Assembly (NCBI GenBank): GCA_026415395.1
Contig: JAOAHD010000020.1
Location: 62,001-126,000 of the forward strand
Direction of reading: 5' to 3'
From: Candidatus Binatia bacterium
GTDB lineage: Bacteria > Desulfobacterota > Binatia > HRBIN30
DNA: 64,000 bases
Under the pieces are notes generated by a model that had not been told where the DNA came from, searched no databases, and was given only the letters and a program-made list of their open reading frames with translations. A program made the translations under genes and the position numbers. Below are positions 45,987-51,184 of the stretch, one piece after another; position 1 is the first letter of the stretch, and every line of letters begins with the position of its first letter.

Positions 45987-47162
45987 TTACAACCCGACGA
46001 TCGACACGAAGCTTACGCAGCGCCCAGGGGCGCCGCCGAGGTTGTGGGTGAGGCCGAGTTTCGGATTGGGGATTTGCCGCGGGCCAGCCTCGCCGCGCAA
46101 CTGCAACCACATCTCGTACATCATGCGCAGCCCGCTCGCTCCGATTGGATGCCCGAAGCTTTTCAGCCCGCCGTCGGGATTGATCGGTTGCGGCCCATCG
46201 CCATCGAAGCGGCCGTCGAGCACGTCGCGCCACGCCTGCCCGCGCGGGGAAAAGCCCATGTCTTCCATGAGCACGAGCTCGGTCGGCGTGAAGCAGTCGT
46301 GCACCTCGGCCATGCTGATTTCTTCGCGCGGATTGGTGACGCCGGCCTGCCGGTAGGCATCTTCGGCGCTGCGCACCACTTCGGGGAACGTGGTGAAGTC
46401 GTAGTTTTGGCTGAAGTAGCCCTCGGCCGGACCCGCCGCGAACGCCAACGCCTTGATGAAAATCGGTTTGTCCGTGTACTTGTGCGCATCTTCCGCGCGA
46501 CAGAGAATCGCCGCTGCGGCGCCGTCGCTCACCCCGGAGCAATCGAAAATCCCCAGCATCCCGGCCACGGGCGGAGCATTGCAAATGGTCTCCATCGACA
46601 CTTCCTTGCGGAACTGCGCCTTGGGGTTGCGCGCCCCGTTCTTGTGGTTCTTCCAAGCAATGCGTGCGAGCACTTGCTTGAGCGTGTCTTCCGGAACGTC
46701 GTATTTTTTCGCGTACGCCGGGGCCAGCAGCGAGAACGTGGCCGGCGCTGTCATGCTGGAGATCGTGCCATCGTGCGGCGGGTTGGCCATGGCCAGGCCG
46801 GAAAAGCCCGAGTCTTTGAGCTTCTCCACCCCGATGGCCATCACCAGGTCGTACGCACCGCTTGCCACCGCGTAGGCCGCGTTGCGCAGGGCTTCGCTGC
46901 CGGTGGCGCACATGTTTTCCAGGCGGGTGACCGGTTTGTAGGGAATCTTCAGCGCCTCGGAGAGCATGAGGCCAGAAAAGCCGCTGGCCATGGTGCCGAG
47001 CCAGTAGGCGTCGACCTGCTCCGGGTCGATGTTGGCTGAAGCGTACGCCTCGCGGGCAGCTTCGATGAGAAGGTCTTCCGGACCTTTATCCCAATGCTCC
47101 CCGAACGGAGTACAACCCATGCCGACAATCGCCACGCGATCTTTGATTCCCTTGCTCGCCAT
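45987..47162 (-). CDS. Thiolase-family protein (SCP2-thiolase/acetyl-CoA acetyltransferase-like)
   Basis: A 391-residue thiolase. It has the nucleophile region ENMCATGSEALRNAAYAV (Cys), the EVHDCFTPTELVLMEDMG segment with the His seen in lipid-transfer-type thiolases, GHPIGASGLRMMYEM, and a C-terminal GGAPGRCVSFVSIVG with the second Cys. It probably cleaves or condenses an acyl-CoA. The ATG at 47160-47162 has AGGAGG about 8 bp upstream. The HMG-CoA-synthase-like/DUF35 gene is 44 bp upstream. Thiolases of this type often need a DUF35 (OB-fold, Zn-ribbon) partner, as in actinobacterial steroid-aldolase complexes, which makes the two a functional pair by inference. Confidence 0.92.
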   Translation of the reverse strand: MASKGIKDRVAIVGMGCTPFGEHWDKGPEDLLIEAAREAYASANIDPEQVDAYWLGTMASGFSGLMLSEALKIPYKPVTRLENMCATGSEALRNAAYAVASGAYDLVMAIGVEKLKDSGFSGLAMANPPHDGTISSMTAPATFSLLAPAYAKKYDVPEDTLKQVLARIAWKNHKNGARNPKAQFRKEVSMETICNAPPVAGMLGIFDCSGVSDGAAAAILCRAEDAHKYTDKPIFIKALAFAAGPAEGYFSQNYDFTTFPEVVRSAEDAYRQAGVTNPREEISMAEVHDCFTPTELVLMEDMGFSPRGQAWRDVLDGRFDGDGPQPINPDGGLKSFGHPIGASGLRMMYEMWLQLRGEAGPRQIPNPKLGLTHNLGGAPGRCVSFVSIVGL

Positions 47163-47206
47163 ACAACGTTCCTCCTGAATTCGCTCGGGCTCTCTGCGCC
47201 GTGCGT

Positions 47207-48592
47207 TTAGCGCATCGGGCGCGCCTTCCAAAAGTAGTTGTGCATTCCTTGCGCCGTGTAGAGGCGGCGGAAAGTCATTTCTAGCTGATCGCCGATTTTC
47301 ACCTGCTTGGGGTCGACGTCGGTAAGCTCGCAGCTAAAGCGGCCACCGCCTTCGTAATCGGCCACCGCGACCACCACCGGAGGCTGCAGCGAGTACGCAA
47401 GATAGTCCAGGGTGTAGGTGGTGACCCGACAAGAGGTGTCCGCGTAGCGCTCTTCGCGCATTTGGTCCACCGCTCCGCAATGCACACACACGCGCTGCGG
47501 GGGCAGATGGCCAGTTTGGCAGCGGGTGCAACGCGAGCCCACGAACGCCATCTTCCATCGCTCGTGCCGGCGCATCACCGGCGCCGCCGGCCGCTCCGGG
47601 TCGGGCCGTCGTGGCGGCTCGAACGGCAGAATGCCCCGCCACTTGAGATAGGTGGGATACGCTAAGTCGTTCCGTTTGGAATCGATCCAGCGCTGCACCG
47701 CGCGCGGCTTCGCCGCCGAGCGCATCCGCTCCGTGACTTCGAAAACCAAGGCATCCACACCGTCGGCCTCGCTGACAACGAGGATGCGCTCGCCAGGCTG
47801 GGCCCGATCGAGCACATGCGCAAGGCCAAGCCCGACATGCGCCGCCCCGCAACGCCCAATTTGCGGCAGAAGTGGGTCGGCCGCTTTGCCAGCATCGAGC
47901 CCGAGTGCCCGCGGCAACAGCGCCAGCGTACGCGGGTTCACCCCGTCCAGCACCACGTGTGCGAGCGATGCCGGTGCCACGCCAGCAGCCGTGAGTGCCT
48001 CCTTGGTCGCTTCGAGCACTGCCGGCCCGAGCGTTTCCGCCGCAAAGCGCTCTTCCCAAGAGCGCGGGAACCGCTCCTCAGGGATGCGCCAAACATCGAG
48101 AATTTCGATCGTTCGCGTTGCCTTGCCAAGCAGGCGGGCAATGGCGTCGCTGTCGCTGCCGACGACAAAGGCCACGCCGGCATCGCCGCCTTGCGCTTCG
48201 CGCAGGCCACCTGGCGCTCCCACCGATACGTCGCTGGCGCACGCCAGGACTTTCCGCCCCGCGGCCGCCAAATCGAGAGCCAACGCTAATGCTGAAGCCC
48301 CGGCGCGCGTGGTGGCTGAGAGTTCGAAGCTGGCAATGGACTCCGGCAAGTCTAACGCCGCCTGAATGGTGGCAGCGTTGAGTTTCTCCGCGTAGGGCGG
48401 GCTGGTCGTGGCAAACACCAGGGTGTCGACAGTCAAGCCGCCGCGCAGCGCGTCGCGCCCTGCCTCCACAGCCAGCGACGCGGCGTCCTCGTCGTAACTC
48501 GCCACCGCGCGCTCGCCGCGACCCGCACCGATCGCTTGGCGCTGCAGGCGGAAGTAAGGGATGTAACTACCGTAGCGAACGATCCCGGCCAA
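47207..48592 (-). CDS. HMG-CoA-synthase-like protein fused to DUF35 (OB-fold, Zn-ribbon), lacking a catalytic Cys
   Basis: A 461-residue two-part protein. The first about 320 residues have the thiolase-like fold of HMG-CoA synthases (GIVRYGSYIPYFRLQRQAI at the start; VVLDGVNPRTLALLPRALG later). Where an active-site Cys would lie, the sequence reads ELSATTRAGASALALA. The rest is a DUF35 domain with a zinc ribbon (CTRCQTGHLPPQRVCVHC) and an OB-fold (TYTLDYLAYSLQPPVVVAVA). The start is a TTG at 48590-48592, supported by AGGAGG about 9 bp upstream. It likely acts with the adjacent thiolase: DUF35 binds acyl-CoA and contacts the thiolase. The missing Cys suggests a structural or acyl-carrier role. 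Confidence 0.87.
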   Translation of the reverse strand: MAGIVRYGSYIPYFRLQRQAIGAGRGERAVASYDEDAASLAVEAGRDALRGGLTVDTLVFATTSPPYAEKLNAATIQAALDLPESIASFELSATTRAGASALALALDLAAAGRKVLACASDVSVGAPGGLREAQGGDAGVAFVVGSDSDAIARLLGKATRTIEILDVWRIPEERFPRSWEERFAAETLGPAVLEATKEALTAAGVAPASLAHVVLDGVNPRTLALLPRALGLDAGKAADPLLPQIGRCGAAHVGLGLAHVLDRAQPGERILVVSEADGVDALVFEVTERMRSAAKPRAVQRWIDSKRNDLAYPTYLKWRGILPFEPPRRPDPERPAAPVMRRHERWKMAFVGSRCTRCQTGHLPPQRVCVHCGAVDQMREERYADTSCRVTTYTLDYLAYSLQPPVVVAVADYEGGGRFSCELTDVDPKQVKIGDQLEMTFRRLYTAQGMHNYFWKARPMR

Positions 48593-48668
48593 ACGAGAAA
48601 CCTCCTGTGCAATTGGTGAAAAACACGCTCATTGTATGCGCGGCGGTTTTTTCGGCAACCCTGGGGCC

Positions 48669-50341: not shown

Positions 50342-51184
50342 TTAAAACGTTTCCGGGTCCCACATCGGGGTCCAGTTGTCCAGCGACAGCGCACCGTCCA
50401 CAACCAGCACGGCGCCGTTGATGTAACGTGCCGCGGGCGAGCACAAGAACAGCACCGCGGCGGCCACTTCCTCCGGGTCGGCGAGGCGGTGGGCGGGAAT
50501 GTCGCGTACGGCGAGACTTTCGTAGTCGCTGACTTCCGCCCGGCTAAATTCCTCCTCGCGCAAGCCGCGCGTGGACACCGTGCCGGGAGCGATCGCATTG
50601 ACGGTGACACCCCGCCGCGCCCAGTAGTACGCAAGGGTGCGGGTGAGGTTGACCACTCCGGCGCGTGCCGCACCTGAGTGCGCAAAAGCAGGCGCGCCGC
50701 GTTCGAATGAGTAAATGTGCACGATGTTCACGGCCGCGCCGAAGCCGCGGTCGAGCATGTGCCGGCCGACACGACTCAGCATGTTCCACGTGCCGTTCAG
50801 GTTCAGATCGATCACGGCCCGCCAGCCCCGATCGCTGATATCCAAGGGACGAGCGGGAAACTGCCCGCCGGCGTTGTTGACGAGAAAATCGATGGCCCCG
50901 AAGCGCTCGAGCGTCTGCGCAACAAGACGCTCCACTTGATCGATCTCGCGAATGTTCGTGGGCACCGCCAGGCACACGCTGCCGAGCGCCTCGATTTCCT
51001 GCGCTGTCGACGTCAGGGGCTCCGGTGTGCGAGCAGCAATCACCACGTTGGCCCCCAAGCGTGCAAACGCCAGGGCAATTGCCCGGCCGATTCCGCGTCC
51101 GCCGCCAGTGACCAAAGCGGTGCGGCCGCGAAACAAATCGGGGGCAAACACACTGAGGGCTGGATGCACCGTTTTGTTACTCAC
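50342..51184 (-). CDS. SDR, trans-2-enoyl-CoA reductase-like (PECR/DECR group)
   Basis: A 280-residue SDR. The cofactor motif is TGGGRGIGRAIALA (residues 27-33 for the glycines), followed by LVNNAGGQFPARP. Where a classical SDR has Tyr-x-x-x-Lys, this one reads AFAHSGAARAGVVNLTRTLA, with Arg174 in the Lys position. Human PECR has the same HSGAARAG motif, so this is probably a family trait rather than damage. PECR-type enzymes reduce trans-2-enoyl-CoA with NADPH. The start is a GTG at 51182-51184, overlapping the upstream gene's stop by 8 bp; there is no strong ribosome binding site, so coupling is likely. Later GTG codons are possible starts. Confidence 0.85.
   Translation of the reverse strand: MSNKTVHPALSVFAPDLFRGRTALVTGGGRGIGRAIALAFARLGANVVIAARTPEPLTSTAQEIEALGSVCLAVPTNIREIDQVERLVAQTLERFGAIDFLVNNAGGQFPARPLDISDRGWRAVIDLNLNGTWNMLSRVGRHMLDRGFGAAVNIVHIYSFERGAPAFAHSGAARAGVVNLTRTLAYYWARRGVTVNAIAPGTVSTRGLREEEFSRAEVSDYESLAVRDIPAHRLADPEEVAAAVLFLCSPAARYINGAVLVVDGALSLDNWTPMWDPETF

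Follow-up and report, generated by a model that had tools for sequence, protein, structure and literature searches.

Why should a bacterium keep, beside an intact thiolase, a 3-hydroxy-3-methylglutaryl-coenzyme A (HMG-CoA) synthase domain that has lost its catalytic residues? The question is raised by a gene pair in a 64,000-nucleotide stretch of Candidatus Binatia bacterium DNA (assembly GCA_026415395.1, contig JAOAHD010000020.1, positions 62,001 to 126,000 of the forward strand), the whole of which we call the window and in whose own numbering coordinates are given. On its minus strand, open reading frames (ORFs) together with profile and Protein Data Bank (PDB) sequence matches place a 461-residue protein at 47207..48592, in which an inactive archaeal-type HMG-CoA-synthase domain is fused to DUF35 (zinc ribbon plus OB fold), and next to it, at 45987..47162, a 391-residue thiolase of the PRK06157/NF004810 type, so that the thiolase, HMG-CoA-synthase and DUF35 parts are all encoded together. 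This agrees with the original prediction, which had been made for this locus from the letters of the sequence. The pair is real and well conserved, and we hold it probable, at roughly 60%, that it would form a thiolase complex built like the archaeal thiolase/HMG-CoA synthase/DUF35 complex, with the synthase as a pseudoenzyme fused to DUF35 and a thiolytic, β-oxidation-type reaction.

All three parts find their best PDB sequence match in 6ESQ, the complex of Methanothermococcus. The synthase domain (residues 1-323; 47624..48592, minus strand) matches the synthase chain 6ESQ_I with an E of 2.4e-30 in phmmer (residues 3-322), and scores below the curated cut-offs of the archaeal HMG-CoA synthase profiles (NF003274, 170.6 versus 244 bits; TIGR00748, 121.1 versus 353.35). 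The synthase fold is retained in the predicted AlphaFold model, which was built from 11 sequences only and has 6esq_I as its best structure match (Z 39.1, root mean square deviation 2.4, 310 residues aligned); the top matches are the synthase-like chains of 6ESQ/6ET9, of PhlABC-type enzymes and of MucABC (Z 35.3-39.1), the other entries listed reaching at most 32.3. The DUF35 tail (residues 342-461; 47210..47569, minus strand) matches the DUF35 chain 6esq_E over residues 342-458 (E 6.2e-8) and passes the OB-fold profile PF01796 with 36.1 bits against a cut-off of 27.1. Its putative zinc ribbon (residues 350-374; 47471..47545, minus strand) carries the cysteines as CxxC...CxxC and scores 22.2 bits with PF12172, slightly under the cut-off of 23.2. 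To judge by these scores, the likeness of the fusion to the 6ESQ chains is no chance resemblance.

Within this retained fold the active site is gone. At the nucleophile site the protein reads ELSATTRAGAS, as had been noticed from the sequence, and its Thr95 (48308..48310, minus strand) does align with the nucleophile Cys114 of 6ESQ chain I, whose numbering we also use for Glu82, F112, His238 and Tyr272. Two further losses go beyond that earlier reading, with Thr63 (48404..48406, minus strand) in place of Glu82 and Asp216 (47945..47947, minus strand) in place of His238, which we take to be a catalytic residue of the synthase; moreover, Gly249 (47846..47848, minus strand) stands in place of Tyr272. 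Cys114 and Glu82 are reported to be required for catalysis in HMG-CoA synthase (PMC6392133). The same losses run through the family. We aligned 173 homologues whose BLAST match to the window protein began no later than residue 40 and reached at least residue 300, dropping shorter pieces and rows whose core was contained in another; near-copies and paralogues were kept, so the rows are not independent. Rows reaching past residue 430 (158 of the 173) are counted as fusions and the other 15 as unfused. Cys114 is kept in 0/158 fusions and Glu82 in 0/158, and a His occupies the His238 column in two, a paralogue in the window genome (L055) and L195. Although every homologue was picked up with a query that is itself dead, the same searches still returned active unfused synthases: Cys, Glu and His are all present in 11 of the 15 unfused rows, these 11 being from the phylum of a Bryobacterales metagenome-assembled genome (MAG), so that the alignment is able to reveal an active site where there is one. 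The four that are unfused yet dead are L123 (a split gene), L136, L151 and L152. A search of 247 genomes from the phylum of the window yielded no HMG-CoA synthase passing TIGR00748, and for this reason the active sequences used for comparison were taken from one other phylum and from 6ESQ. The true nucleophile might have lain elsewhere in the domain, but no other Cys column is conserved there (the best has Cys in 90/158 fusions and Ala in the window protein), and the claim of a missing nucleophile stands. Hence we predict that the aligned fused proteins would lack HMG-CoA synthase activity.

A quick tree, rooted on the active set and built without the columns near the three sites, bears on the history of this loss; its 73 rows are 6ESQ, PhlA, all 15 unfused proteins and 56 of the 158 fusions. 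One branch (Shimodaira-Hasegawa-like approximate likelihood ratio test 98) splits the 12 active rows from 61 dead ones, PhlA and a Priestia relative among the latter, which is consistent with a single loss of the active site but no proof of it. The fusion label needs four changes on this tree, because L136, L123 and L152 fall among the fusions; DUF35 would thus have been gained or separated repeatedly, unless the placement of these rows is wrong. The branches of L152 and L153 are long. The Priestia megaterium plasmid locus L151 (4992-7770), which clusters with PhlA, encodes an unfused PhlA-like dead synthase, a thiolase and a zinc-ribbon protein, and a gene for a non-ribosomal peptide synthetase follows closely.

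What replaced its residues bears on what the dead domain might still do. The Tyr272 column holds Tyr in 12/12 active rows and Gly in 158/158 fusions as well as in the five unfused dead rows (PhlA counted among them), and the Glu82 column holds Thr in 128/158 fusions. When the 141 columns that the active set conserves are ranked by loss of side-chain volume, Y272 and F112 come first, and F112 is two residues away from Cys114. Such specific replacements argue against the alternative that the synthase domain is a mere structural spacer, holding the quaternary structure together with no contact to the substrate, as has been proposed for PhlA. That alternative we consider unlikely, though it is the rival that survives best: the synthase fold is kept in the model, volume is gained rather than lost at some conserved columns, and in PhlABC only PhlC residues are reported to touch the bound product, PhlA and PhlB being thought by the authors to be needed for the folded complex (PMC6392133). 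The same paper describes the PhlA and PhlC sites as opening into one common cavity, closed by PhlB, which speaks against a spacer. The role of the inactive synthase, called unexplained in the original prediction, is thus not wholly so, given the precedent of PhlA with its same loss of Cys and Glu and its proposed role in folding (PMC6392133).

In contrast to the synthase domain, the thiolase has the residues it needs. It scores 622.4 bits with the PRK06157 profile of NCBIfam (cut-off 403), its top PDB match is 6esq_A (E 9.9e-63), and the alignment of partner thiolases places the nucleophile Cys85 in NMCATG (46908..46910, minus strand), His288 in HDCF (46299..46301, minus strand) and His338 in GHP (46149..46151, minus strand), bearing out what the earlier reading had said of its Cys and His residues. 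This numbering counts from the ATG at 47162, which is most likely the start, rather than the TTG at 47231 picked by the ORF listing; in the P0002 numbering, which has two residues before the Met, the three are Cys87, His290 and His340. An AGGAGG at 47171..47176 (minus strand) is the likely ribosome-binding site, and with this start the thiolase lies 44 bases downstream of the fusion. The fusion itself starts at TTG 48592, 8 bases after another AGGAGG (48601..48606, minus strand; likewise the likely ribosome-binding site), and a start codon also stands at this position in 8/10 relatives.

The pairing is as stable as the losses. Counting as a partner any thiolase on the same strand, with more than 60 bits and within 700 bases, 152/158 fusions are adjoined by one (151 downstream, 1 upstream); one fusion lies at a contig edge and five have none. 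Those five belong to four genomes (G092 has two), all of which hold such a thiolase elsewhere with a best identity of 56-88%, a count in which the second fusion of G092 (L078) was not traced separately. In 140/140 of the aligned partners (match over more than 330 residues; 12 of the 152 were left out as too short) the Cys, the His and Asp of HDCF and the His of GHP are kept, and five of seven partners scanned pass the PRK06157 cut-off, the haloarchaeal partner and that of L122 falling below it. Across 140 pairs, distances among the fusions are correlated with those among their thiolases (r 0.85), and when partners were swapped within the 16 multi-pair genomes (43 pairs), 0/2000 draws came as high as the observed 0.858 (mean 0.34, maximum 0.75). 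The closest named relatives of the pair, bacterium HR30 and a Candidatus Binatia MAG, have fusions 88% and 86% identical to that of the window and thiolases 98% identical; against the window, the thiolases of L013 and L016 (98%) are far more conserved than their fused neighbors (86-88%), and over 220 close pairs the median distance ratio is 1.75. The window genome has three fusion-thiolase pairs in all, and in G371 two fusion genes of the family lie less than 5 kb apart (L209).

With catalytic residues present in the thiolase and missing from the synthase, it is the thiolase that would do the chemistry, most likely the thiolytic cleavage of a 3-ketoacyl-CoA in a β-oxidation-type pathway. DUF35 would staple the dead synthase to the thiolase and, together with it, hold the thiolase in place, and the emptied synthase pocket would give structural support and might also extend the acyl-CoA cavity of the thiolase, much as the MaoC domain of ChsH2 does for steroid rings. 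Delivery of acyl-CoA by DUF35 proteins is a published proposal (PMC2954200), and DUF35 has been termed a molecular staple that links successive enzymes of sterol breakdown (PMC10398937). The four zinc-ribbon cysteines are found by pattern in 149/158 fusions; in two actinobacterial relatives (L020 and L022) they are lost and the OB part is well conserved.

A DUF35 that ties a second domain to a thiolase-fold enzyme is also found in ChsH1-ChsH2-Ltp2 and Shy-Sal, and it had been supposed that the window pair forms a complex in which DUF35 brings acyl-CoA to the thiolase as in the steroid side-chain aldolases. The complex is supported by homology and by the stable gene pairing, but the aldolases are not its nearest analogue, which would be the archaeal complex and PhlABC/MucABC. 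The HDCF of the window thiolase, with the His found in 140/140 partners, differs from the YDCY of Sal, where Tyr302 and Cys304 are reported to be catalytic, and from the paired Tyr of Ltp2 (PMC12329534), and the matches of the window thiolase to Ltp2 (6ok1_A, E 2.3e-22) and to a chain of 9myr (E 2.9e-18) are far below that to 6esq_A. A retro-aldol complex like Ltp2-ChsH2 or Sal-Shy, acting on a hydroxyacyl-CoA, is therefore very doubtful, even if ring-hydroxylating dioxygenases adjoin some relatives, the DUF35 tail is common to ChsH2 and Shy, and ChsH2 is reported to join to DUF35 a MaoC domain that lacks catalytic residues and extends the cavity for steroid rings (PMC11321319); the domain fused in the window is a synthase instead of a MaoC. 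A different chemistry without Cys (decarboxylation, hydrolysis or isomerization, for example), performed by other residues of the synthase domain, is the least probable of all, for although D51, E153, R203, G269 and G301 are still conserved and a new Asp stands at 158 in 140/158 fusions, Cys and Glu are gone from 158/158 and His from 156/158, with no conserved replacement at the Cys and His columns and no alternative Cys column.

The genes around the relatives favor cleavage over synthesis. Acyl-CoA genes lie near the fusion in 11 of 12 annotated plasmid regions viewed (acyl-CoA dehydrogenase, enoyl-CoA hydratase, MaoC, 3-hydroxyacyl-CoA dehydrogenase, CoA ligase or CoA transferase); the twelfth, from Novosphingobium pentaromativorans, has short-chain dehydrogenases/reductases (SDRs) and no such acyl-CoA genes in the stretch viewed. 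L021 sits in a clear β-oxidation cluster, and L227 has CoA-transferase-like and acyl-CoA-dehydrogenase-like genes. The other neighbors of the closest relatives are mostly unnamed, the query set being small, and the gene caller missed the fusion itself in L221 and L225, for instance, so that these listings are no evidence of absence. On the Rhodococcus and Mycobacterium avium plasmids of L140, L141 and L146 the pair stands beside an AMP-binding protein, a two-subunit ring-hydroxylating dioxygenase and several enoyl-CoA hydratases, a setting that suggests a common aromatic or alicyclic acid pathway.

At an E of 1e-20 or better, a threshold at which some matches are partial or unfused, matches were found in 82/247 genomes of the window's phylum, in 38/246 of the phylum of an Acidimicrobiia MAG and in 27/149 of that of the Bryobacterales MAG, nine of these last with a full-length fusion. 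Plasmids carry the family in Rhodococcus, Mycobacterium avium, Streptomyces, Variovorax, Azoarcus, Sphingobium, Novosphingobium, Paraburkholderia and haloarchaea. Those haloarchaeal matches that are near full length have 23-28% identity, and in the protein of Natrialba magadii, the sole haloarchaeal member checked, the active site is dead too; its gene order is thiolase, fusion, 3-hydroxyacyl-CoA dehydrogenase, acyl-CoA dehydrogenase.

In 9/158 fusions the chain runs on in frame into a dehydrogenase-like SDR, and in seven of these also into SCP2, as checked with Pfam in four of the nine (three of the seven with SCP2 and one of the other two). That DUF35 occurs fused to domains of the thiolase superfamily, to SDR and to SCP2 has been on record since 2010 (PMC2954200). 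The frames of 811-939 residues had been candidates for fusions with the thiolase, which is ruled out, the extra part being SDR (nine examined, seven with SCP2) and the thiolase a separate gene; in frames of 745, 839, 1121 and 1163 residues the part before the synthase domain looks, from the ends of the reading frames, like an upstream stop-to-stop extension. Of the nine loci with such a chain (L067-L075), L074 begins at a contig edge; each of the other eight has, no more than ~140 bases upstream, another frame that contains SDR and SCP2. In the window's own genome, a paralogous fusion lies 9 bases downstream of an SDR gene, which finds its best PDB match in the (3R)-hydroxyacyl-CoA dehydrogenase 2et6 (E 3.7e-110 over two stretches); the window pair itself is without such an SDR neighbor. 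The SDR fusions suggest a hand-over of substrate from a dehydrogenase step. Taking this further, we put forward as a tentative idea that the retired synthase might be an acyl-chain cradle in a widespread prokaryotic β-oxidation complex, in which catalytic and bulky pocket residues were lost once, DUF35 was fused for docking to the thiolase, and some chains added a (3R)-hydroxyacyl-CoA-dehydrogenase-like SDR and SCP2; it would then be a bacterial counterpart of peroxisomal MFE-2/SCPx, with bulky substrates passed from dehydrogenase to thiolase.

Several observations weigh against a thiolytic, β-oxidation-type complex with an emptied pocket. The window pair stands outside any obvious β-oxidation operon. 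Upstream on the same strand are genes that look, by eye, carbonic anhydrase-like and threonine dehydratase-like, and an SDR (50342-51184, minus strand) that resembles an enoyl-CoA reductase, its top match in the PDB being to peroxisomal trans-2-enoyl-CoA reductase (1yxm, E 9.3e-56). The correlated distances could be explained by linkage alone, so that the pairing figures speak for stable pairs and not for contact, and fusion and thiolase share the same nearest-relative pair in only 83/140. Emptying of the pocket is not general, volume being gained at some conserved columns (G206, G279, T186) with a mean change of ~0, and that Y272 and F112 line the pocket is something we infer. The AlphaFold model is poor and unreliable over the DUF35 part. 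From related systems, DUF35 is reported to be unimportant for activity in steroid complexes (PMC11321319), the flexible linkers of Shy-Sal are said to argue against channelling (PMC12329534), and PpATase is described as lacking the CoA-binding residues of 6ESQ (PMC6392133). The gene order of the window (the SDR of the 50342-51184 cluster, threonine-dehydratase-like gene, fusion, thiolase) is kept in L013 and L016.

In a text search of a collection of open-access papers (titles and the beginnings of abstracts) we found no report that calls the fused family catalytically dead. Plasmid relatives are annotated as OB-fold domain-containing, 3-oxoacyl-[acyl-carrier-protein] synthase III C-terminal domain-containing, hydroxymethylglutaryl-CoA synthase, zinc ribbon or hypothetical protein, and are consequently read as biosynthetic or unknown, whereas the gene setting suggests that the fusions serve acyl-CoA breakdown with the neighboring thiolase. 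If this is true, the annotation would be corrected, and the family, which can be set against active relatives, would offer a clear comparative case of one enzyme becoming a permanent component of another.

Among known systems, the benzoylsuccinyl-CoA thiolase BbsAB is described as a thiolase with a zinc-finger subunit acting in catabolism, and its chain 7PXP_C matches the window thiolase with an E of 3.3e-42. BbsAB is not known to have a synthase-like domain. ipfD/ipfE (ibuprofen) were considered as a characterized member; in the available description IpfE is given as an OB-fold protein, a thiolase is listed for ipfDE, and no synthase domain is named in that text, and we do not claim them. Closer are PhlACB of Pseudomonas protegens (5M3K) and MucABC (9VBO), which like the window pair combine an inactive synthase-like part, DUF35 and a thiolase-like catalytic part. 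PhlA, noted as an inactive member in 2010 (PMC2954200), is reported to be without the catalytic Cys and Glu (PMC6392133) and falls on the dead side of our tree, and MucA shows neither residue in the alignment as printed. PhlA and PhlB are separate subunits, however, whereas in the window a PhlA-like and a PhlB-like part are fused in one 461-residue frame, and PhlACB is described as serving antibiotic biosynthesis with no added CoA (PMC6392133), whereas the window partner is a PRK06157-type thiolase and most annotated relatives lie amid acyl-CoA genes. The archaeal complex has the same three parts, with CoA reported to lie at an interface formed by all three proteins (PMC6392133), but its synthase has Cys114, Glu82 and His238 and helps to make HMG-CoA, whereas that of the window is without all three, and its DUF35 is a separate protein, whereas in the window it is fused to the synthase domain.

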